A DNA stretch of 64,000 nucleotides from Burkholderiaceae bacterium (GTDB lineage: Bacteria; Pseudomonadota; Gammaproteobacteria; Burkholderiales; Burkholderiaceae_A), in NCBI GenBank assembly GCA_004214155.1, contig SGYQ01000007.1, positions 1 through 64,000 on the forward strand. The letters are read 5' to 3'. The notes below the pieces were generated by a model. That model was not told the DNA's origin. It saw only the letters and a program-made list of their open reading frames with translations, and did not search any database. Shown here piece after piece: positions 2,558 through 13,591 of the stretch. Position numbers and translations under genes: made by a program. Every line of letters starts with the position of its first letter. Within the stretch, counting starts at the first letter, position 1.

Positions 2558-3643
2558 ATGACGATACTGTACCAACTTTTACACTCTAAAGCCACGGATA
2601 TTTACTCAGTTATAGAAAAGCCTGATCGATTTTCAGAAATTGTTGACGTAAGATCTCCTAGCGAATTTCAGGATGATCATATTCCAGGTGCGATTAATTT
2701 ACCTGTGCTTTCAGATGAAGAGCGCAACCTAGTTGGTACACTTTACAAACAAGACTCATTTGAAGGGAAAAAATTAGGTGCTGAATTAATATGCAAAAAC
2801 ATATCCAAAATGTTTGAGAGCGTACTCAAATACAAAAATAAGGATTGGCAGCCCTTGATATATTGCCAACGGGGAGGTGAAAGAAGTAAGTCACTAGCAA
2901 CAATTTTACTTAGAACAGGTTTCAAGACTAATATATTGAGTGGAGGATACAAGTCTTACCGACGATACGTGATAAACGAATTGGAAAAGTTAGGGAACAA
3001 AATTGAGTTTCAAGTTATATGCGGGTTGACCGGTTCCGGAAAAACAAAACTACTAACTGAACTACGTAAGCATGGATTACAAACGTTAGATTTAGAAGAT
3101 ATAGCGAAGCACTATGGCTCACTTTTAGGTCAATACCCATCAGTTATTCAACCAAGTCAAAAACAATTTGAGTCTAACTTGTTAATTACTATGTTAAGAC
3201 TCAATGCTGAACAACATGTTTTCGTAGAATCCGAAAGCAGAAAAATTGGAAACAGACAAATTCCTACGGCAATTATCAAAAAAATGCGGGGCTCGAAATG
3301 TTTGTGGATACAGATGACGATAGAAGAAAGAATAAATTTTCTCCTAAAAGAGTATGCTCACTTCGTAAAAAACCCGGAAAGATTTTTAAACATTATTGCA
3401 AAATTTGAAAATTATTTGGACAAAGATAAGTTTAATCAATTAGTCGAAATGTATAAAAAAAGATATTGGAAAGACTTTGTAAGAATGCTTTTACGAGAAC
3501 ACTATGACCCTTCTTATCTGAGGTCGATACGTAAAAATTTCACCAAAATCAAAGAAGCTAAAATATTAAAATCAGAGGATAACTCACAAAATCCAGAACT
3601 TCACTGTGCAATGGCTGAGTCTGTAAGTAAAACTTTTAAGTAA
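2558..3643 (+). CDS. mnmH: tRNA 2-selenouridine/geranyl-2-thiouridine synthase
   Basis: MnmH (SelU/YbbB) replaces sulfur by selenium at the wobble 2-thiouridine of certain tRNAs, using selenophosphate. The 361-residue product has an N-terminal rhodanese domain (EIVDVRSPSEFQDDHIPGA) with the active-site loop IYCQRGGERS holding the expected catalytic cysteine near residue 105, and a C-terminal P-loop domain with GLTGSGKT near residues 160-167. Length matches E. coli MnmH (364). It lies 4 kb from selA-selC-selB, so this chromosome end serves both selenium uses. selD, needed for selenophosphate, is not in the window. The 3' end overlaps the convergent ppiD-like gene by 43 bases. Confidence 0.93.
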   Translation: MTILYQLLHSKATDIYSVIEKPDRFSEIVDVRSPSEFQDDHIPGAINLPVLSDEERNLVGTLYKQDSFEGKKLGAELICKNISKMFESVLKYKNKDWQPLIYCQRGGERSKSLATILLRTGFKTNILSGGYKSYRRYVINELEKLGNKIEFQVICGLTGSGKTKLLTELRKHGLQTLDLEDIAKHYGSLLGQYPSVIQPSQKQFESNLLITMLRLNAEQHVFVESESRKIGNRQIPTAIIKKMRGSKCLWIQMTIEERINFLLKEYAHFVKNPERFLNIIAKFENYLDKDKFNQLVEMYKKRYWKDFVRMLLREHYDPSYLRSIRKNFTKIKEAKILKSEDNSQNPELHCAMAESVSKTFK

Positions 3644-5088
3644 CGATCAACCTTCATCTGCTCTTCATAATCACGAAGCCAGGCCTTGACGACAAGATCA
3701 GTCTCCGCACTATTAAATATTCCAAATATATTCTCAAGTGATTCAACTACTCTTTTACTGGAAGCTTCTTCAAGTTCCGAGGACAGAAAAAAAACTAAGG
3801 CAGCACCGCTCGGGCCCAAACTTAGAACAGTTCCTTGATTTATTTCCAATTCATGTGAAAACAGTTCTCCCTTAAATTGTCTCAGAAGCTGAGAATACTG
3901 GTCACTATTTTGATCTTGATTGCTACGAAAAGGTAACACCACCTTTCGTAAAGATTTTTTCAATTTGCTATCCGCATTAACTTCTTCGAAAAAAGTATCT
4001 GCCTCCTCTTTAGCCACCTTATTCATTTTTTGCAACAAAATTTCAGACTTAATTTGATCTTTGACCACGTCAAATTGCATAGGAACCGCTTCATGTTGTT
4101 TCACTAAGTTTGCAGCGATGTGAAGCCCCTTTGCTACTTGAATCAGCTCCGTATTATAGTTTTCTATCAAAAAATCGTCAGAAAATAATTCAGACCTGAA
4201 TTTTGCATCGTTAAGAGCTCGCAAAGCATTATTATTAAGTTTTCCACCTCCTATAGCAGGTGCGTTTAAATCTAACCTAGTAATTCTTTGAACCTTCAAA
4301 TTAAACTTCTCGGCGACAGGATCTAAACTGGAGTTCTCCTCATAAAGCAGGTTCCCTATTTCATCGACCCCATCATCTCCTTCTAAAACTATAAAATCTA
4401 TATCGTACGTGGCAGGTATCACAAACCTTGATCCGTTATCATCAAAGAAATTCTTTACTTCCGTGTCCATAACCTTTACTTTATTTTTATATGATAAAGG
4501 TGAAAAAAGCTTCACACCGAAGGTTCTTTTTTCATTTTCTGCTCGGGCTAATTTCCTGACAATAGTTCTGGGAACAAAATTTGAAGCATTTAAAATCTCA
4601 GGAATCAAAGCTAAAGATAAGTCTGCTTTAAGGCGATTTTCAAAGTCAACCGTAGACATTCCCTGGCGACCTAATACTTTCTTTGCTTGATCTAAATTAA
4701 AAACACCTTTCTCATCATGAAACTCAGGTATTCCTAAAATTATAGTTTTTACATCACTATCCGAAACCCCTATTCTGGATGTTGAAACAACCTTCTGCAG
4801 AATAAATTGGTTAATCATATTATCAAGAGTTGCTCTCTTTACCTCATCCGAGTTCAACATCTCATCAGGTATATTATTTCCAACCCTGTTTTTAAAGTTT
4901 GTAACGAATTCCTGATGAACATTCTCCCAATTTCGTTTATATATATCGACCCCATCAACACTCGCAACAACTGGTTCCCTGTTAGGACTGAACTGATCCC
5001 AAGCACCAACAACTATAAAAGGCGGTATTACCAGCGCCAACAAAACAAATAAAAGAACCTTCTTTTTTTCTCTGATAATTTCAAACAT
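3601..5088 (-). CDS. PpiD/SurA-type membrane-anchored periplasmic chaperone, apparently without a parvulin domain
   Basis: The 495-residue protein has the PpiD layout at its N-terminus: a short cytoplasmic stretch, one membrane segment (about residues 12-31, LLFVLLALVIPPFIVVGAW) and a SurA_N-like domain (VDGVDIYKRNWENV, NQFILQKVV). PpiD binds the SecYEG translocon and helps exported proteins fold. E. coli PpiD has about 620 residues and an inserted parvulin domain. Here the sequence passes from FIVLEGDDGVDEIGNLL straight into a segment resembling the C-terminal half (APAIGGGKLNNN, HEAVPMQFDVVKDQIKSEIL), and no parvulin signature (SEDPGS, GGDLG, GYHIIK) is visible. The position downstream of lon and two tRNAs in betaproteobacteria supports orthology to ppiD, although the selenium block now lies between. 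Confidence 0.8.
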   Translation of the reverse strand: MFEIIREKKKVLLFVLLALVIPPFIVVGAWDQFSPNREPVVASVDGVDIYKRNWENVHQEFVTNFKNRVGNNIPDEMLNSDEVKRATLDNMINQFILQKVVSTSRIGVSDSDVKTIILGIPEFHDEKGVFNLDQAKKVLGRQGMSTVDFENRLKADLSLALIPEILNASNFVPRTIVRKLARAENEKRTFGVKLFSPLSYKNKVKVMDTEVKNFFDDNGSRFVIPATYDIDFIVLEGDDGVDEIGNLLYEENSSLDPVAEKFNLKVQRITRLDLNAPAIGGGKLNNNALRALNDAKFRSELFSDDFLIENYNTELIQVAKGLHIAANLVKQHEAVPMQFDVVKDQIKSEILLQKMNKVAKEEADTFFEEVNADSKLKKSLRKVVLPFRSNQDQNSDQYSQLLRQFKGELFSHELEINQGTVLSLGPSGAALVFFLSSELEEASSKRVVESLENIFGIFNSAETDLVVKAWLRDYEEQMKVDRYLKVLLTDSAIAQ

Positions 5089-5557
5089 AGAGTACTCTCA
5101 AAATAAGTGCGGTTTCGGAAATAAGGATTAGAAATTAAGTCTGTACACAGTTCAGCAAATAGTATTAATTTTAAACCGTATTTTTTTCTGTGTAACTAAT
5201 TAACCCACTTTTTGTGCAGTTAGCTAAAAAAGTCTGCTTTGCTTTGCTAACAAAAGCCTAGTAACTGCATCCAATTGAGTGCAGCGTTTATATTTGGGAC
5301 GTATGGAAACCCCTAGCATCATTCCATTGGGTTGCATAATCAGCGACATCATAACAAGTACCCGCGAACTCAAATATATCCTCAGCTCCGTTGCAATACA
5401 AGCCATGTAAGCACTTAAAGTAATTTATTTATAAAATATTTACGCACTTGCTTTAACCGCAACTTAGAAAAACTTAATGCAAACAATAGACTTTCACAAA
5501 TTTTTTCTTAAAAAATAGAAATAACGCTTGGAACTGAAGGTTAGATAAATTTTTAAT
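5089..5557. other. Noncoding stretch with a possible short gene remnant
   Basis: There is no convincing gene in this 469-base gap. The 60-residue ORF of the track (5224-5406, minus) has unlikely composition. In another minus frame a TTG at 5401 opens a 37-codon stretch ending at TAA 5288-5290 that reads AEDIFEFAGTCYDVADYATQ, which looks protein-like but lacks an ATG and a ribosome site and may be a gene remnant. The part next to 5088 should hold the promoter of the ppiD-like gene; I cannot point to clear boxes. Confidence 0.3.
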
Positions 5558-6190
5558 TTAATGTAACTTTGCCAGCCCCAAATAGTTATATCCTGCAAAT
5601 TTCGGAACACCTTCAACATACCCCTGGGACAGTTGATCAATTTGGAACCCAGACTGAGAAATAATTGAAGGAATATCACGGGTCAATTGACATCCTCCAG
5701 CTATTTTTTTCCAATAAGGATTAATCATCTTTTGTAATTTCGCATCTTTATCGTTGATAGCAATTCCATGTTCGCAAAATAATAAATTGCCGTCTTTTTT
5801 CAAAACCCTCCTAATCTCAATATTAGCTTTAATAGGTTCAAGAATAGTACACATTGTGTAAGTAATTAAAACATTATCGACTGAGTCGTCAGGTAAGGGA
5901 ATATCCTCAGCGAAGCAGTTTAAAATATCTAGCGAAAAGCTAGTGTTTTTAATATTCCGTTTTGCGAGCTGCAATAGTTTTTTCGAGGGCTCAAGCGCCC
6001 ACAAATGATGGACTTTATCCTGGTTATAAAATGGTAAATTTAGACCCGAGCCAAAACCAATTTCAAGAACAGTGCCGCTAACTTTTGGCACTATAATTGA
6101 TCGCTGTACATCGAAGGCTTTATTATTACACGCGCAGTCGAGTAAGTGAGGTAAAACATTCTCATCATAAAATTTTTTTACGATTTCCAT
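5558..6190 (-). CDS. Class I SAM-dependent methyltransferase
   Basis: The 210-residue protein has motif I as VLEIGFGSGLNLPFY (about residues 40-54), the acidic motif II region LWALEPS and the post-II stretch CFAEDIPLPDDSVDNVLITYTMCTI, with a C-terminal GYNYLGLAKL typical of the METTL7/phospholipid-methyltransferase-like group of Methyltransf_11 proteins. The substrate cannot be read from the sequence. It starts 55 bases after the stop of the TlpA-like gene on the same strand and could be co-transcribed with it. Confidence 0.82.
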   Translation of the reverse strand: MEIVKKFYDENVLPHLLDCACNNKAFDVQRSIIVPKVSGTVLEIGFGSGLNLPFYNQDKVHHLWALEPSKKLLQLAKRNIKNTSFSLDILNCFAEDIPLPDDSVDNVLITYTMCTILEPIKANIEIRRVLKKDGNLLFCEHGIAINDKDAKLQKMINPYWKKIAGGCQLTRDIPSIISQSGFQIDQLSQGYVEGVPKFAGYNYLGLAKLH

Positions 6191-6245
6191 TTAATTTTAG
6201 TAAAATTTTGGGTTTGTGCTTTCCAGAATAGATACATTAGCCTTA

Positions 6246-6788
6246 TTAAATTGCTTTAATTATCGCTTCTTCCAATTTTTCCTTTGACGTTTCCCCCAAA
6301 AACTTTGCAATAAAATTATTGTCGGCATCAATAACAACCATATATGGAAGTCCTTTGCGCAAATTCCCCATTTGTTTTGAAAGATCGATGGCATCGTTGC
6401 CGCCGATGAGTATTTCGAATGTAATTCCGTTTTTTTTGACAAAATCTCTCACCTTGTCCGTGTTATCTACAGCGATACCAAGAAATGACACATTTTTATC
6501 CCTATATTGCTCCTCCAATTCTTTCAACATAGTTGTTTCTCTCACGCAAGATGCGCACCACGTGGCCCAAAAGTAGGCGATCATAACCTTACCCTCATAC
6601 TTTCTTAACGGCTGCATAGACCTATCAAATGCCTTGAAACTAGAATTAAAAAAGGCATCAACTTTTTTTCTATCAGCGACAATACGCTCCGAGTCTCTAT
6701 TATTGTTTATCGATCCATCTTCCACGCAACCAAATAGAAACACAGAAATGATGATCATATTGAACTTTAGAAGAATGTTACTCATCAT
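6246..6788 (-). CDS. TlpA/ResA-like thiol-disulfide oxidoreductase, lipoprotein
   Basis: A lipoprotein signal (hydrophobic MIIISVFLFGC with a lipobox cysteine at about residue 21) is followed by a thioredoxin fold with AYFWATWCASC, giving the redox pair C78 and C81, and the later FEILIGGNDAI and GLPYMVVIDAD, the latter containing the conserved cis-proline. Proteins of this type reduce periplasmic disulfides, often for cytochrome c maturation, and a small cytochrome c gene starts divergently only 6 bases away. A role in supplying reduced cysteines for that cytochrome is an inference. The length of 180 residues fits the family. Confidence 0.88.
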   Translation of the reverse strand: MMSNILLKFNMIIISVFLFGCVEDGSINNNRDSERIVADRKKVDAFFNSSFKAFDRSMQPLRKYEGKVMIAYFWATWCASCVRETTMLKELEEQYRDKNVSFLGIAVDNTDKVRDFVKKNGITFEILIGGNDAIDLSKQMGNLRKGLPYMVVIDADNNFIAKFLGETSKEKLEEAIIKAI

Positions 6789-6794
6789 ATACCC

Positions 6795-7256
6795 ATGGTT
6801 TTTGTAAAAATGTTTGCTACTTTATTTATAGTCTCTCCGACCGTTTTGGCCGAAGAAAAATCCCGGTTTCTTTTAAAAGATACTGAAATTTCTGTTGTTA
6901 AAGAAGGTAAAAAGGTTTACGGGACATATTGTGCCGCATGCCATGGTAAAAATCTAGAAGGTCAGCCTAATTGGGAGACATTTGGAGCGGACGGTCGTCT
7001 TCCTGCGCCACCCCACGATGAAAATGGGCACACCTGGCACCATCCTGACTCATATTTAGTTGATGTTGTATTGAACGGTTTCACGCCAGGAAAAAATAAA
7101 CCATTAGAATATGAAAGTAATATGCCTGCGTTTAAAAATATTCTAGACATAGACCAGATCATTTCGGCATTGAGCTACATCAAAAGCACGTGGTCCATTG
7201 ACTATCGAGAGTGGCAGGAAAATGCGACAAGAAATGACATGTCTACAGGCCAGTAG
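6795..7256 (+). CDS. Small exported c-type cytochrome
   Basis: The 153-residue protein has a signal peptide ending near VLA (residues 17-19), a single haem-binding CAACH at 46-50 and a downstream SNMPAFKNIL that offers the axial methionine, so it is a class I monohaem cytochrome c of the periplasm. A His-rich segment between them (GHTWHHPDSYL) is typical of small cytochromes in copper- or sulfur-related loci. The electron partner is unknown. Its 3' end overlaps the convergent selA by 14 bases. An alternative ATG five codons in would shorten the signal peptide, so the upstream ATG is kept. Confidence 0.88.
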   Translation: MVFVKMFATLFIVSPTVLAEEKSRFLLKDTEISVVKEGKKVYGTYCAACHGKNLEGQPNWETFGADGRLPAPPHDENGHTWHHPDSYLVDVVLNGFTPGKNKPLEYESNMPAFKNILDIDQIISALSYIKSTWSIDYREWQENATRNDMSTGQ

Positions 7257-8643
7257 ATTTCAATTCAATGAAAGATTTTGCAAATTCTTCTTCATCCATA
7301 AGACATCGTAAATCTAAAAATAATGAGTCTTCCTTAATTCTGCCAATGATCGGAATGCTAAGTTTTCTAAAACTTCGCTCCAGTTTTGTAATTTGACTAC
7401 TTCTTTTACTTTTTTTGCTGTTGCTGCTAATTTTATATCCAAAACTAGGTAATTTATCTTCTGGTAGAGAACCGCTACCTACTTGTCCTTTCATATTAAC
7501 CATCTCTACTCTGAATTCCGGTTCCAACGCATTTTGGACCAAAAAGCAATTGCTTTCTGTCTGAGCTTTTATAAAGTCAACGCTTTTGGTTAATAGCCGC
7601 ATTGTAGTTAATTCTGTGGTCAAAGTTTCTTCTTTTAAATACATTCTCAGAACAGAATCTAACGCACACAAAGTGAGCTTACCCACGCGCAGGCATCTTC
7701 TCAAAGGATTTCTTTTTATTCTTTTAATTAATTCTTTATTGCCTGCAATTATCCCCGCCTGCGGTCCACCAAGCAGCTTGTCGCAACTAAAAAGAACGAG
7801 ATCAGTTCCTTTTATCAGAGAGCTTTGAATTGTCGGCTCCCGAGGAAGGCCAAACTTCTCCATTTCTAATAAAGTACCGCTACCTAAATCCTCGATGAAA
7901 GGAATTTTTCTTTTTTTACACAGGTCAGCTAGAGTCTCCTGATCTACGGAGGCAGTGAAACCCGTGATTTTGAAATTACTCCAGTGAACTCTCATGACCA
8001 TAGCCGTTTTCTCGGTTATTGCATCTTCAAAATCTTCCAAATGCGTCCTATTAGTAGTGCCGACTTCCACTAGTCGACAACCGGCTTTTCGCATAATATC
8101 AGGTATTCTAAAAGACCCTCCAATTTCAACTAATTCTGATCTGGAAACTATGACTTCCCTTTTTTGAGCAAGACTATTTAATGTAAGAAATACCGCTGCC
8201 GCGTTATTATTAACTATCGTGGCATCCTCAGCGTTAGTAAGTTCCTTTATTAGGCCAACGATATGATCATCTCTATCTCCGCGTTTTCCTTTAGAAATAT
8301 CATATTCAAGGGTCACAGGATTCGCATACTTATCTGCCACCTCCTCTATAGTTTTGCTTGGCAGCAGTGCTCTTCCCAAGTTAGTGTGTAGTACTGTTCC
8401 CGTAAGGTTGATAACTTTTTTCAGGGAGGGTTGACTAGATTCCTCCAACGCTTCTTCACATTTTTTCAAAATTAATTCTGCAGTAACGGATCTTATTTCG
8501 CCCGAAACTATCTTTTTCCGAAACTCAGCAGTTGTCCTGCGCAGGGTCTTGACGACGCTTTTCCTACCGTAGTTGAAGGCTAGCCCTTTACCATCTTCGA
8601 GGGATAGCATGAAATCGATACTCGGAATTAAATTGGCGTTCAT
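7243..8643 (-). CDS. selA: L-seryl-tRNA(Sec) selenium transferase
   Basis: SelA is the PLP enzyme that converts seryl-tRNA(Sec) to selenocysteinyl-tRNA(Sec) with selenophosphate. The 466-residue product has the family signatures INLTGTVLHTNLGRALL (79-95), the NNNAAAVFL block, and the PLP lysine K289 in FSCDKLLGGPQAG. Length matches E. coli SelA (463). It is the last gene of the leftward cluster selB-selC-selA; its ATG lies 9 bases beyond the 3' end of the selC tRNA, so both probably come from one transcript. Confidence 0.96.
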   Translation of the reverse strand: MNANLIPSIDFMLSLEDGKGLAFNYGRKSVVKTLRRTTAEFRKKIVSGEIRSVTAELILKKCEEALEESSQPSLKKVINLTGTVLHTNLGRALLPSKTIEEVADKYANPVTLEYDISKGKRGDRDDHIVGLIKELTNAEDATIVNNNAAAVFLTLNSLAQKREVIVSRSELVEIGGSFRIPDIMRKAGCRLVEVGTTNRTHLEDFEDAITEKTAMVMRVHWSNFKITGFTASVDQETLADLCKKRKIPFIEDLGSGTLLEMEKFGLPREPTIQSSLIKGTDLVLFSCDKLLGGPQAGIIAGNKELIKRIKRNPLRRCLRVGKLTLCALDSVLRMYLKEETLTTELTTMRLLTKSVDFIKAQTESNCFLVQNALEPEFRVEMVNMKGQVGSGSLPEDKLPSFGYKISSNSKKSKRSSQITKLERSFRKLSIPIIGRIKEDSLFLDLRCLMDEEEFAKSFIELKSTGL

Positions 8644-8652
8644 AAGAAATTT

Positions 8653-8749
8653 TGGCGGAAGAGAATAGGAGTCGAACCTACCGAGAATGACCTAACCACC
8701 CTCCCTGGATTTGAAGTCCAGACGCCCCACCGGGAAACGTTTCTCTTCC
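8653..8749 (-). tRNA. selC: tRNA-Sec (anticodon TCA)
   Basis: The minus strand reads as a long tRNA of 97 nt including an encoded CCA. It has an 8-bp acceptor stem (GGAAGAGA with TCTCTTCC), the anticodon loop CTTCAAA giving TCA (8714-8712), a long variable arm, and GGTTCGACTCC in the T arm, all close to bacterial selC. It sits between selB (5 bases away) and selA. Confidence 0.97.
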
Positions 8750-8754
8750 TTAGA

Positions 8755-10695
8755 TTAGTAGTCATCGAAACCAAAGACAGTAGAACACGAATTTTTAATT
8801 CTTCTTCCAGTGCTAAATCTGGTTGTTAATCCGGATCTGTCAAAAAACTCTAAAAATGGAATCGTAAGGCCTCTCGAAAGCTTCGTAACGGTTCTAAATT
8901 CGGCCATTGTAAATTTCTCCTTCCCTTTTGAGTTAGCGAGCTCTTCAACCTTTTTAGCTAGCCTTTGCACAGTCTCTGCCAGAAAATATTGGTTTTTTCT
9001 GATTTTGCATACGTGGCCTAACTCTTCAAGTTTCGCCATTAGAATCTCCCCTTTTTTAGCATTTATTTGTAATTCTGGAAATAACTCTGTAATTTGTGGA
9101 GGGCTAAGTTCATCTTCATGAATAACCTTTTCAATTTTTTGAAATAATATACGGTCTTCGTCAACCAATTTTGGGCGATGCTCAGGGTGGTAATATCTCG
9201 CCATCTTAACTTTAATAATCCCCAACTCCGTGATAAATTTTAGTAAAAAATTAAATGACTCTAAAGACATATCTCCCCCAACACCTTCAAAGAATGTATT
9301 TATGTCGGGTCCGTATATATCGAAATTATTTTTATGGTAGGCTTTTAACCACTGAACAACTCTTAGTTTAAAATTATCAACAAATGTTCGCTCAAAAACT
9401 AATGAGCCTCCCGTATATGGGATCTTTACAAGTCCACTATCATCAAGCCATTCAGCGATGTTATTCCTTCTTATATTAAAAATCTTTACTAACCAATCGT
9501 AATCAAAACCATTTCTCGCAAGTTTCATTAACCGGCCTTCAAGTCTTTCGGAGTTACTTTGTATACCTTCCAACAGAGCTTTTAGCAAGACAATGTTTTT
9601 TTTCTTTCGTCTGAATTTGCATTTTGCATCGGGATTCAATATTAGACCGCCACCCAACGTTCTGGTAGAATTTTCGTCTCTTACAATAAAGTGGTCTCCA
9701 CAAGTGGAAACAAAATTTTTCGCTGAGATAAATTGAACGAAACCAGAATGTCCAGGCAAAATTTCTTCTCCATGCAAAACCGCTAATTTTATTACTGTAT
9801 TCTGAGTACCAATGTGTAAATGAATTATGGAATTATGCTTCAAAGCTTTAGGTTCTGAATCCGATAAATGTAAAAACCCATCGACTCTTCTGGTGACCAG
9901 ACTTAAACCCGTTTCGACAATCCAGTTCCCTCGGCTGATCTCATTTTTCTTTAAGTTATTTCCCGTCAAATTTAAAGCACATCTATCGCCTACCCGTCCG
10001 ATAGTAGTTTCTTTAGACTGTGCTCGAATGCCCTTTACTCGCAGCTTTTTACCTTGAGGCAGAAGTGTAACATAATCGTTCTTTTTTATTTCGCCAGAAA
10101 ATATTGTGCCTGTAACAACTGTCCCGGCTCCATCTTTCGTAAAACATCGATCAATCGGTAAGCGAAAGTTTTGACTTATTTTCTTTGATCTTTTAACGAT
10201 ATTAGTGCTTAGCAAATAGTCTTTTAACTGTCGAATACCGTCCAAATTTTTATTCGAAGCCTGAAAAAATTGACAATCCTTTAAAAAAGATTTTCTGAGA
10301 AATTTTTTTATTCTTTCTATGACTATTTCGCACTCAGCGGGCCCTACCAAGTCCGTTTTCGTTACTACTACAGCACCGTCAGTAATTCCCAAATTTTCGC
10401 ATATAAGCAAATGCTCTTTTGTTTGTGGCATAACACCATCATCTGCTGCAACAACTAATAAACAAAAATCTATTCCGCATGCCCCCGCTAACATATTAGT
10501 AATAAATTTTTCGTGTCCTGGAACGTCTACAAATCCAATCATGTTACCCATCGGTGTAGATAGATAAGCAAAACCAATGTTTATGCTTATACCTCTTTTT
10601 TTTTCCTCTTCAAGAGAATCTGTATCAACTGAGGTAAGAGATTTTATAAGCGTAGTTTTCCCGTGATCAATATGTCCAGCAGTTCCAACAATCAC
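8755..10695 (-). CDS. selB: Selenocysteine-specific elongation factor SelB
   Basis: SelB delivers Sec-tRNA to UGA codons followed by a SECIS hairpin. The 646-residue product has the translational GTPase motifs at its N-terminus (GTAGHIDHGKT, DVPGHEKF, VVTKTD), the beta-barrel domains, and a long C-terminal region of winged-helix type (from about residue 400) that in SelB binds SECIS RNA. Length compares with 614 in E. coli. The start is GTG at 10695; the GGGGGG purine tract that could act as its ribosome site belongs to the hairpin described separately. Having selB here means UGA can be decoded as selenocysteine in this organism. Confidence 0.95.
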   Translation of the reverse strand: MIVGTAGHIDHGKTTLIKSLTSVDTDSLEEEKKRGISINIGFAYLSTPMGNMIGFVDVPGHEKFITNMLAGACGIDFCLLVVAADDGVMPQTKEHLLICENLGITDGAVVVTKTDLVGPAECEIVIERIKKFLRKSFLKDCQFFQASNKNLDGIRQLKDYLLSTNIVKRSKKISQNFRLPIDRCFTKDGAGTVVTGTIFSGEIKKNDYVTLLPQGKKLRVKGIRAQSKETTIGRVGDRCALNLTGNNLKKNEISRGNWIVETGLSLVTRRVDGFLHLSDSEPKALKHNSIIHLHIGTQNTVIKLAVLHGEEILPGHSGFVQFISAKNFVSTCGDHFIVRDENSTRTLGGGLILNPDAKCKFRRKKKNIVLLKALLEGIQSNSERLEGRLMKLARNGFDYDWLVKIFNIRRNNIAEWLDDSGLVKIPYTGGSLVFERTFVDNFKLRVVQWLKAYHKNNFDIYGPDINTFFEGVGGDMSLESFNFLLKFITELGIIKVKMARYYHPEHRPKLVDEDRILFQKIEKVIHEDELSPPQITELFPELQINAKKGEILMAKLEELGHVCKIRKNQYFLAETVQRLAKKVEELANSKGKEKFTMAEFRTVTKLSRGLTIPFLEFFDRSGLTTRFSTGRRIKNSCSTVFGFDDY

Positions 10696-10736
10696 AAAAA
10701 CAAACCCCCCTTTCTAGCAGGTATAAAAGGGGGGTT
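10695..10736 (-). terminator. Terminator-like hairpin between the selenoprotein gene and selB
   Basis: On the minus strand an 11-bp stem (AACCCCCCTTT paired with AAAGGGGGGTT, arms 10736-10726 and 10713-10703) with a 12-nt loop is followed by TTTGTTTTTG, as in a rho-independent terminator. The 3' arm carries the only plausible Shine-Dalgarno sequence (AAGGGGGG) for the selB GTG at 10695, so the fold could both end the upstream transcript and hide the selB ribosome site. Confidence 0.75.
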
Positions 10737-10749
10737 GTTCGTCACGAGT

Positions 10750-12276
10750 TCACCTTACGGTTGTCTCAGCTAACTCCAAAACAGTTGTACGATAAGGGGT
10801 AAAGTTAACCCTGTTCGACACTGCATAGAGTTTTGACGGGGCGTATAAGAATAAAGCAAAAGCCTGCTCATGCACATATGCCTCAAGCTCTCTTGTCAAA
10901 CTTTCCTGATTGTCAGGACTATTTACAATTTTTTTGCCAATATCCTCAAAACCCTTATTAACAGGCATTGATCTGAATCCACCGTCTTGACCAAAAAACT
11001 CCCTATGAACAACTCCGTAAGGATGGTTGGGTGACCAATCGAAATGTTCAACAAGTTTTATGTCCCAACCATCGGACCCTGATGTATCCACTTTTGCAGA
11101 AATCCCGACAGCAGATAGATTTTTTGCTATGGAATCGGCAACCGCTTTATGACCTGCTCCCGTTGCAATAACAAAATCTTTAATTCCTGCTCCCTTCAAA
11201 ACCGCCTGAGCTTTTTTAGGCTCATAAGCATAAGGAGAAAGTGAACTGTTGTAACCAAAAGAACCACCAGTAATCATCGCGGGCATTATTGTCCCATATC
11301 CGAGATGCCCTTCTTGTAAAACAAGGTTCTTATCAACGGCATGATTTATTGCCTGGCGTAATTCTTTATTTTTCCATTTCGAACCAGACTTATTTTGATT
11401 AAAAACACCAACCAAAACAGTTTTTGCTCTGCTTTCGACAACACCGGCTTTGCTGCTCTCACTTACCTTCATTGCTTCCGCCGGAGTAAGTTCTGTGACG
11501 ATATCGATTTTACCGCCTTTGATTACCTCGTCAATTGCTTCCGCTTTTGAAATGATGTTATCGAACTTAATCCTAACTTTTGGAATTCTTGTAGGATTCC
11601 AGTAGTCGTTGTTAGGCTCCATAATCACAGTTGGTGATCTTTTATCCAAAACAGAAACTCCTTCTTTTAATACGAATGGGCCAGTCCCCCACGGACCAGC
11701 TTCATCTATGACTCACCAATGCCCTTCGGCATTTTTAGTCTTCGCATCAATAAAAGCTAACTGGTTCCAAAATTTTGTGCTGCCAACGTGCATACCCCTA
11801 AATTTCATTATTGCTGAAGCATCAGGCTCTGGAAACGTAAATCGAACAGAATATTTACCCAGAACTTCAAGTTTCGTCTTAGGATGAAAATTTAGAAAAG
11901 CACCAGGTGGATGAGGATTCTTCCATCTTTGAACCTCATCAAAGCTTTTTCTAAAAACTTTGGCTGTCAATAGTTCGCCATCATGAAATCTGATATTTGG
12001 CCTCAAAACCATTTCAAGTGTAGTTTTATTTTTCCATGTGTAACTTTCAGCAAGATCAAGGATTTCATTTCCTTCACTATCAACTCTCACAATTTCATCC
12101 ATCGTATTCCAGGTAATCCACAACCAGTTAACTGGAGAAGGGTCTACTACCGTTACCGTTGGCAAATTCTTCTTGTCAGCATGCACAGAAGTAAATCCCA
12201 AAATACCGGCGGATAAAATTAAACAACTGAGAGCTTGCTTCACGCCGTGCTTTTTGAACAAACTTAAAAGCGACAT
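10750..12276 (-). CDS. Family 5 (peptide/nickel-type) ABC transporter solute-binding protein with a probable selenocysteine
   Basis: The track splits this gene at an in-frame TGA (11715-11713): residues 1-187, the TGA, then 21 codons up to the TTG that opens the second ORF, all in one frame, for 508 residues in total. The N-terminus is a signal peptide (LSCLILSAGILGFTSVHA), followed by SBP_bac_5 features: NEILDLAESYTW, RPNIRFHDGELLTAKVF, PWGTGPF just after the TGA, NNDYWNP, and the C-terminal AINHAVDK and EQAFALFLYAPS. The family is about 500-540 residues, so the joined length is normal and each half alone is not functional. A SECIS-like hairpin follows the TGA and selB-selC-selA lie directly downstream, so residue 188 is read as selenocysteine. 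The predicted mature protein contains no cysteine at all. No permease or ATPase genes adjoin it. A GAGGAGAG ribosome site precedes ATG 12276. The alternative is a nonsense pseudogene. Confidence 0.85.
11675..11715 (-). promoter_or_regulatory. UGA codon with bacterial SECIS-like hairpin
   Basis: After UGA (11715-11713) the RNA folds into an 8-bp stem, GCUGGUCC (11700-11693) with GGACUGGC (11687-11680), closed by the 5-nt loop GUGGG. A lower stem GAUG (11706-11703) with CAUU (11678-11675) is separated by a small AA/C internal loop. The loop begins 20 nt after the UGA and starts with G. Both agree with the known bacterial SECIS pattern (short stem-loop, G at the first loop positions, roughly 16-37 nt from UGA). 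Confidence 0.82.
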
Positions 12277-12338
12277 ATATCTCTCCTCAAAAAAAATTAA
12301 AAAAATCTCAACCTGCAGAGACTATAAAAATGTAGCAC

Positions 12339-12353
12339 GCGATTAGTTATCGC
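12339..12353. promoter_or_regulatory. Inverted repeat, possible operator upstream of the selenoprotein gene
   Basis: GCGAT-N5-ATCGC lies 63-77 bases before the solute-binding protein start, within the 133-base gap after the OhrR-like gene. On the minus strand it falls between a weak -35-like TTGTGC and a -10-like TACATT 17 bases apart, where a MarR-family dimer could block RNA polymerase. It does not match the classical OhrR operator, so the link to that regulator is a guess. Confidence 0.3.
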
Positions 12354-12409
12354 ACAATATAAATAGGAAAGTTTTATGAAAAAAAGGAAAATTTACATCA
12401 GTAAGCCTT

Positions 12410-12889
12410 CTATGAGAGGCGGAGGTTTAATCTAGGGCTGTCGGTAAGTTCTAAAACTTTGTTAAGTTCGTTAATGGAATCCCTGAGGTCACAATAGTCT
12501 TGATGGATTAGACCCGTTTGGCAACTAACATCCTCCTGAATTTTTGATACAGTCTCTTTAAGTTCATTCCCTTTTTGAGTCAAATTTAAGTTAATCGTTC
12601 GCTCGTCCTTTGCAGATCTAATCTTCAGCAACAACCCATTGTTTTGCATTCTTTTCAAAACTGGAGACAAACTTCCCGAACCCAATTTGAGCTTTTCCGA
12701 AAGGTAACTTAGTGTTGTGCCGGGTGTTTCCCAAAGCACCAGTAATACTAGATATTGCGTATAAGTTAAGTTATATTTCCCAAGCTTCTTATTGTATGCC
12801 CTCATCACCGCGTTACACGCACTGTAAAGAGCAAAACAAAGCTGGTGATTTAATAATAAATTATTTTTTTTACCTGTCTCCACCCACAT
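12410..12889 (-). CDS. MarR-family regulator of the OhrR (organic peroxide sensor) type
   Basis: From ATG 12889 the product has 159 residues. LLLNHQLCFALYSACNAVMRAY followed by NLTYTQYLVLLVLWE matches OhrR closely: C18 is the expected peroxide-sensing cysteine, and the two tyrosines that hydrogen-bond it in Bacillus OhrR are present. The winged helix follows (SYLSEKLKLGSGSLSPVLKRM, then KDERTINLNLT). OhrR represses genes such as ohr until the cysteine is oxidised. No ohr gene is near; the gene downstream on the same strand is the selenoprotein, so a redox-controlled target is plausible. The track start at 12925 is a TTG that extends past the family N-terminus, so ATG is preferred. Confidence 0.85.
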   Translation of the reverse strand: MWVETGKKNNLLLNHQLCFALYSACNAVMRAYNKKLGKYNLTYTQYLVLLVLWETPGTTLSYLSEKLKLGSGSLSPVLKRMQNNGLLLKIRSAKDERTINLNLTQKGNELKETVSKIQEDVSCQTGLIHQDYCDLRDSINELNKVLELTDSPRLNLRLS

Positions 12890-13002
12890 AGTATACAGCA
12901 CCTTGCAACCTGATAGGGCCACCAATTAATTTCAGTTTTTATTGCAAAGTAAATCGTCAAACAACTTTTAGTTTGAATAAATTAGAGATTTACTTCTTGT
13001 CT

Positions 13003-13133
13003 TATAATGAAAAAAAACAATTAGACCTTTCTTTAGATAAATGTATCAATTCGAAAAATTAATTTAGTTCAATCGGAAATATCCAAAAAAGTTTTTAGAT
13101 CCTCACTTTCACGGTGAGCAACAAAAAAACTTT
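13003..13133 (+). promoter_or_regulatory. Possible promoter box and structured leader of a small transcript
   Basis: In the 625-base gap between the OhrR-like gene and tRNA-Asp, a TATAAT (13003-13008) is followed by a two-tier hairpin (13088-13133): outer arms AAAGTTTTT and AAAAACTTT, inner arms CTCAC and GTGAG. I see no good -35 hexamer. It precedes the 38-codon ORF below. Downstream of that ORF's terminator, 13318-13514 holds nothing I recognise. Confidence 0.35.
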
Positions 13134-13148
13134 AAGAGAAAGAAAAAA

Positions 13149-13265
13149 ATGTCTGCCTCTAATATTCGTGAGGACGATAAAATTTACCTTTGTGTTCTTA
13201 AACTAGAATACAGAAACCCAGATCTTCCTATTAAACAAAAAATCACAAAACACCCCAAAAACTGA
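13149..13265 (+). CDS. Possible small protein of 38 residues
   Basis: ATG 13149 opens a 38-codon ORF (MSASNIREDDKIYLCVLK at its start, basic C-terminus) preceded by the weak ribosome site AGAGAAAG and followed 18 bases later by a strong terminator. I recognise no family. The arrangement of TATAAT, hairpin, ORF and terminator is what makes it worth listing. It could equally be an untranslated RNA. Confidence 0.35.
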   Translation: MSASNIREDDKIYLCVLKLEYRNPDLPIKQKITKHPKN

Positions 13266-13283
13266 AGTGTTCGGATCCGATCT

Positions 13284-13317
13284 GTTCGTGTCCTTACACC
13301 TAGACACGAACCTTTTT
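13284..13317 (+). terminator. Rho-independent terminator
   Basis: Perfect 9-bp arms GTTCGTGTC (13284-13292) and GACACGAAC (13303-13311) with a 10-nt loop are followed by CTTTTT on the plus strand. It would end the small transcript starting near 13003-13020. Confidence 0.7.
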
Positions 13318-13514
13318 CGAGGGTTAAAAGGGGGAGCTAGCTTTTTTAGGCATGCCAGAGTAAGCATGGGTAAGCCTTCATGTGCTAAGATATGCAGTCG
13401 TACTTGAAGTGTTACAGTATCTGCAAAAAACGAGGGGTAAATGAAAGAATGGCTTAACTGTGAGGGTTTAGAGCGGATCTCTACGGAAATTGTATAGACC
13501 CTGGCTCTAAAAAG

Positions 13515-13591
13515 TGGCGGAGCGGACGGGACTCGAACCCGCGACCTCCGGCGTGACAGGCCGATATTCTAACCAGCTGAACTACCGCTCC
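13515..13591 (-). tRNA. tRNA-Asp (anticodon GTC)
   Basis: The minus strand gives GGAGCGG paired with CCGCTCC, D arm TAGTTCAGCTGG, anticodon loop CTGTCAC (GTC at 13557-13555), T arm GGTTCGAGTCCC and an encoded GCCA end, 77 nt in total. It follows tRNA-Val by 14 bases downstream of lon, the betaproteobacterial order. Confidence 0.97.

Follow-up and report, generated by a model that had tools for sequence, protein, structure and literature searches.

A predicted OhrR-class peroxide sensor encoded directly upstream of a selenocysteine operon in a marine Burkholderiaceae bacterium

Introduction

OhrR normally controls ohr, and the OhrR of X. campestris (2pex, 2pfb) is paired with that gene. A target other than ohr is represented by OspR of P. 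aeruginosa, an OhrR homologue that controls gpx, encoding a glutathione peroxidase (PMC4999210). The operators of the OhrR family share an AATT-N-AATT core (PMC4999210). On the side of selenoproteins, selenocysteine (Sec) in an ABC-type substrate-binding fold has been predicted for SaoX, SaoB and BtuF (PMC13188914), and PF00496 does not figure among the 119 selenoprotein families inventoried in 2026 (PMC13188914). In our literature search, no paper had OhrR and selenocysteine as its joint subject.

The locus described here lies within the first 64,000 nucleotides of contig SGYQ01000007.1 (assembly GCA_004214155.1; this whole stretch is called the window) from a marine bacterium of the Burkholderiaceae, in which the gene for a repressor of predicted peroxide-sensor class is situated directly 5' of a Sec operon. 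With OspR-gpx it shares a 2-Cys regulator of the OhrR family, a putative antioxidant-type target other than ohr, plausible autoregulation and similar promoter elements (TTGTGTG/TACTTT in OspR-gpx; PMC4999210). Unlike OspR-gpx, it comprises a predicted selenoprotein of substrate-binding protein (SBP) fold together with Sec machinery, and the promoter of the putative target lacks an AATT-N-AATT box. Both sensing cysteines, both tyrosines and, judged by sequence, the MarR fold are as in X. campestris OhrR, but the ohr gene that accompanies the latter is absent from the genome assembly of our bacterium. Sec in an ABC-type substrate-binding fold links the window protein to SaoX, SaoB and BtuF; these, however, belong to other families (NF040735, NF040727 and cd01144) with other Sec motifs (PMC13188914), whereas the window protein falls into PF00496, carries an HWU motif, has no Cys in its mature form and is encoded in an operon without transporter genes.

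Results

Gene order at the locus

On the minus strand, tRNA-Asp is followed in order by ohrR, the SBP gene with its in-frame UGA, selB, selC, selA, a TlpA/ResA-like redoxin gene and a methyltransferase gene. The gap between ohrR and the SBP gene is 133-137 nt, varying with how the ends are counted. The features are as follows.

13515..13591, minus strand: tRNA-Asp; the cassette begins at its 3' end here (at tRNA-Ser in L052)
12410..12889, minus strand: ohrR, OhrR-family (MarR) regulator of 2-Cys type (ORF from ATG)
10750..12276, minus strand (ORF also given as 10753-12276): predicted selenoprotein, SBP_bac_5 fold, apparent signal peptide (from sequence)
11713..11715, minus strand: in-frame UGA (Sec188), motif HWU[VI][IL]D-x-[AP]GPWGTGPF, at a position common to homologues
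11680..11700, minus strand: SECIS-like stem-loop just 3' of the UGA, with GGTCCGTGGGGGACTGG (synonymous-site conservation, folding)
8755..10695, minus strand: selB (profile matches)
8653..8749, minus strand: selC, tRNA-Sec (tRNA search)
7243..8643, minus strand: selA (profile matches)
6246..6788, minus strand: TlpA/ResA-like thiol-disulfide redoxin (WATWCASC), the conserved proteobacterial partner of the selenoprotein
5558..6190, minus strand: class I SAM methyltransferase at the cassette end, membership uncertain

What the slot between tRNA-Asp and ppiD (window 5100-13591; L105:6069-7987) carries varies among congeners; in G003, which is Sec-less, the lon-tRNA-Val-tRNA-Asp-ppiD slot is occupied by a PAPS-reductase-like gene and a rhodanese. 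Beside ppiD, the window also contains mnmH/selU (2558-3643(+)), with selD located elsewhere in the genome (G000:C11:6600-7523). As selD is likewise present in the Sec-less congeners G001 and G003, the 2-selenouridine trait is probably older than the Sec cassette. A c-type cytochrome gene was observed on the opposite strand of the window.

The OhrR-family regulator

The regulator matches the Pfam MarR profile, and its best solved relative is X. campestris OhrR (2pfb, E=6e-27). Its residues Cys18, Tyr32, Tyr43 and Cys123 (ATG numbering) align with X. campestris Cys22, Tyr36, Tyr47 and Cys127; we take Cys18 to be the peroxidatic cysteine, Cys123 the resolving one, and the two tyrosines to have the same roles as their counterparts. 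The initial annotation had pointed to the sensing cysteine and both tyrosines, and to a selenium-containing binding protein as the next gene on the same strand; both observations are borne out, by this alignment and by the UGA-containing SBP gene, respectively. The second, resolving cysteine had gone unmentioned there. The MarR domain, both cysteines and both tyrosines argue that the regulator is a real peroxide sensor of the OhrR class and 2-Cys type. Against NF052638, the NCBIfam equivalog for Vibrio-type OhrR, it reached 135.7 bits, under the 200-bit cut-off, and is not a member of that equivalog, the OhrR subfamily being wider; the OhrR of a congener also scores under this cut-off. Values of dN/dS between 0.06 and 0.27 indicate purifying selection on OhrR, and the SBP gene is under purifying selection as well. 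The ATG of ohrR is not kept in two relatives, while an in-frame GTG (12883) and an upstream TTG (12925) are kept; either of these could be the start instead.

A candidate operator was found at the 5' end of ohrR.

12922..12933, minus strand: candidate OhrR box GAAATTAATTGG, 10/12 to GCAATTAATTGC, with an AATT-AATT core

Three genomes retain this box, L052 with a spacer of 1 nt, and a match as good occurs in approximately 2% of 126-nt windows. A second AATT-N5-AATT near 13060 was considered as an operator and discarded, as it is not conserved in L060.

Absence of ohr

With TIGR03561, no ohr was detected in the bacterium's own genome, seven congeners and the genome of L060 (nine genus genomes), an absence that is strong only jointly, the own genome being 87% complete and completeness in the genus ranging from 70 to 92%. 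The earlier remark that no ohr is nearby can thus be extended to all of these assemblies. The same model detects ohr in three selenoprotein carriers that are more distantly related. The only OsmC-domain protein of the own genome (hit at L001) was rejected as a hidden ohr, being YhfA-like and well under the cut-off.

Linkage of OhrR and the selenoprotein

Among 61 relatives, the UGA-containing SBP gene was present in two out of eight members of the genus that were searched (the own genome and G006) and in two distant Burkholderiales-type genomes; L060 represents a third close relative with this gene. In all three genus genomes with the operon (window, L052/G006 and L060) OhrR directly precedes SBP; these genomes are close relatives, which makes conservation weak evidence. 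The carriers and the redoxin loci are listed below.

Selenoprotein carriers: window 10750-12276(-); L052, L053, L054, L060, L062-L066, L094, L095, L136, L138
TlpA-like/DsbD loci beside the selenoprotein: window 6246-6788(-); L053:8731-9273; L065:5191-5829; L062:6384-8132

No OhrR was found beside homologous selenoproteins outside the genus, in the Burkholderiales, other gammaproteobacterial and Bacillaceae loci examined. At seven non-genus proteobacterial loci (L053, L054, L062-L065 and L136) TlpA is directly upstream and OhrR is absent; in L062 and L065, selA is moreover followed by dsbD. An eighth such locus, L137 (homologue at 4133-5708(-)), has a frame break near the UGA, L136 being its better-kept close relative. 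The Bacillaceae loci have neither OhrR nor TlpA. One candidate OhrR near the selenoprotein in L063 was dismissed, as it is a partial MarR-like match at the locus end, 5.8 kb past SBP. Co-occurrence of regulator and selenoprotein, proposed earlier as a check in relatives, was thus seen in the operon-carrying genomes of the genus but not in the other lineages examined, and peroxide control would not be a general property of the selenoprotein.

The main rival to peroxide control is that the two units are neighbours only: OhrR would regulate itself and unlinked genes, the operon would be independent, and both would have been inserted in the same tRNA-adjacent slot. We consider this quite possible, if somewhat improbable. 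The OhrR tree groups the window regulator with those of congeners without the cassette (support 100/97), so that OhrR was probably recruited within the genus. It is native there, occurs in three congeners (G001, G004 and G007) in other contexts without SBP or selB, and stands at the locus in no lineage outside the genus; moreover, the canonical-looking box is at ohrR and not at the SBP promoter. Coincidental proximity, however, sits less well with the missing usual target ohr, with an invariant promoter block upstream of SBP, and with a pair that keeps its spacer of 133-137 nt although it has been relocated to a different tRNA gene; the common spacer and the retention of the pair at both tRNA-Asp (window) and tRNA-Ser (L052) indicate that it moved as a unit. 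Peroxide control of the operon is, on these grounds, plausible, and the linkage holds in every operon-carrying genus genome found and nowhere else.

The inverted repeat and the SBP promoter region

Three elements were noted between ohrR and the SBP gene.

12339..12353, no strand assigned: inverted repeat GCGAT-N5-ATCGC in the SBP promoter region (exact match)
12352..12357, minus strand: possible -35 TTGTGC, 17 nt from the -10 (read from sequence, invariant in three genomes)
12329..12334, minus strand: possible extended -10 (TGC)TACATT (read from sequence, invariant in three genomes)

The repeat, already reported in the initial annotation and found exactly as described, belongs to a 51-nt block (12325-12375) without variation among three genomes, and it sits between TTGTGC and the extended -10 TGCTACATT, which are spaced by 17 nt. 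This promoter reading is under the promoter-scan threshold and is based on position and conservation only; the SBP gene may have its own promoter. Repeats with 5-bp arms are common in the intergenic region (mean 1.9 per shuffle), and one with GC-rich arms appears in about 5% of shuffles. A genome search gave two copies of the repeat versus 0 for a reversed-pattern control. The second copy is located inside an O-acetylhomoserine-sulfhydrylase-type ORF, so that this regulon search gave no second regulatory copy. Neither the repeat nor the remainder of the SBP promoter contains an AATT-N-AATT core. The known OhrR boxes were also tried at this promoter and rejected, as no AATT pair is present and the best matches have 3-5 mismatches and are not conserved. 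As a candidate OhrR box, GAAATTAATTGG at ohrR appears better than the GCGAT repeat.

Two other roles for the repeat were considered. It may be a weak terminator or attenuator hairpin that ends ohrR and separates it from the SBP gene, blocking read-through, since a scan marks a stem of 8 pairs, three of them wobble pairs, with CTACATTTTT after it, 57-74 nt past the ohrR stop. We regard this as unlikely: no more than the 5-bp core pairs on folding (-5.6 kcal/mol, z = -1.0), stem and T run are set apart, the conserved block reaches well past the stem, and the repeat fits exactly into the 17-nt spacer of a plausible promoter. Alternatively, the repeat could be the operator of another regulator, responsive to a metal, selenium or a peptide, with OhrR being irrelevant to it. 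The arms GCGAT/ATCGC without the AATT core of the OhrR family, and their differing spacing of 5, speak for such an operator. On the other hand, GCGAT is similar to GCAAT, one half of the GCAATT-N-AATTGC box, and no other promoter copy exists in the genome and hence no evidence of a separate regulon, which makes this explanation distinctly improbable.

The selenoprotein

The SBP gene product matches PF00496 with 160.8 bits (cut-off 32.4), and Sec188 is the only Cys or Sec of the mature window protein. That the UGA is a real stop in a broken gene, leaving no selenoprotein for OhrR to control, could be argued from the single in-frame TGA and the calling of the two halves as separate ORFs, but is hardly credible, because UGA is found at this very codon in Burkholderiales, in a further gammaproteobacterial family and in Bacillaceae (at identities as low as 35%), the downstream coding sequence is conserved and under purifying selection, the SECIS-like sequence shows synonymous-site conservation, selA, selB and selC are adjacent, and selB exceeds its family cut-off within the genus only together with SBP. 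The bases 3' of the UGA (GGTCCGTGGGGGACTGG) show conservation at synonymous sites when AT-rich genomes are compared with GC-rich ones; single-sequence folding of the stem-loop was not significant (z = -0.9).

No Cys-containing homologue was found in approximately 1,400 genome searches (Burkholderiales-type order, class and Bacillota samples). Methods based on Cys homologues would miss such selenoproteins, as the deep-Sep authors note (PMC12013277). One Bacillaceae homologue (L093:5414-7012(-)) has Ser in place of Sec, which is an unusual substitution. NCBIfam has no fitting model, and with its SBP_bac_5 domain, its HWU motif and no Cys homologue found, the protein apparently represents an undescribed selenoprotein family.

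The adjoining ORFs in the window and at homologous loci include no permease or ATPase genes, and the Bacillaceae forms begin without an apparent signal peptide, both of which make a role as importer unlikely. As the mature window protein has no Cys, a redox cycle would need a thiol from elsewhere, most obviously that of TlpA. The presence of TlpA, and in two genomes DsbD, next to the selenoprotein elsewhere points to redox chemistry and suggests an electron route DsbD-TlpA-selenoprotein. The AlphaFold model of the SBP (pLDDT 75 overall, 47-65 around Sec188) is too weak to place Sec in a ligand site.

Discussion

We tentatively propose, with confidence that falls a little short of even, that a genus-native 2-Cys OhrR was joined to a mobile Sec cassette, acts as repressor of its own gene and of the operon, and comes off the DNA in response to organic hydroperoxide. 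The initial suggestion of peroxide-dependent control of the selenoprotein agrees with the class of the regulator, the missing ohr and the linkage in the genus; it is weakened by the lack of wider linkage and by a repeat unlike an OhrR operator.

In this proposal, an OhrR without an ohr partner would have become attached to a cassette of SBP-Sec, selB, selC, selA, TlpA and the methyltransferase. We infer DNA binding, peroxide response and redox function as its steps. Reduced OhrR would repress its own promoter via the AATTAATT box. Its repression of the operon would take one of two routes: it would curb the read-through that comes from ohrR, or it would act at a further site within the SBP promoter, for which the GCGAT repeat is a possible candidate. 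Organic hydroperoxide would oxidise Cys18, which would then pair with Cys123 of the other subunit; the oxidised OhrR would leave the DNA, and both the selenoprotein and its UGA-decoding machinery would be induced. The selenoprotein itself would be a Sec redox protein of the periplasm, with the TlpA-like redoxin as its reductant.

A bolder version, which we consider unlikely as a whole, would have the peroxide sensor control the selenoprotein with selB, selC and selA in one operon, and the selenoprotein found a new family, in which an SBP scaffold has become a periplasmic peroxide or repair enzyme that depends on Sec and is supplied by DsbD and the TlpA-like redoxin, with no cysteine version found.

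What sets this locus apart is an OhrR without ohr ahead of an operon that would make both a selenoprotein and the tools for its decoding. Should this control be real, organic peroxide would be the switch that turns on the use of selenocysteine itself.
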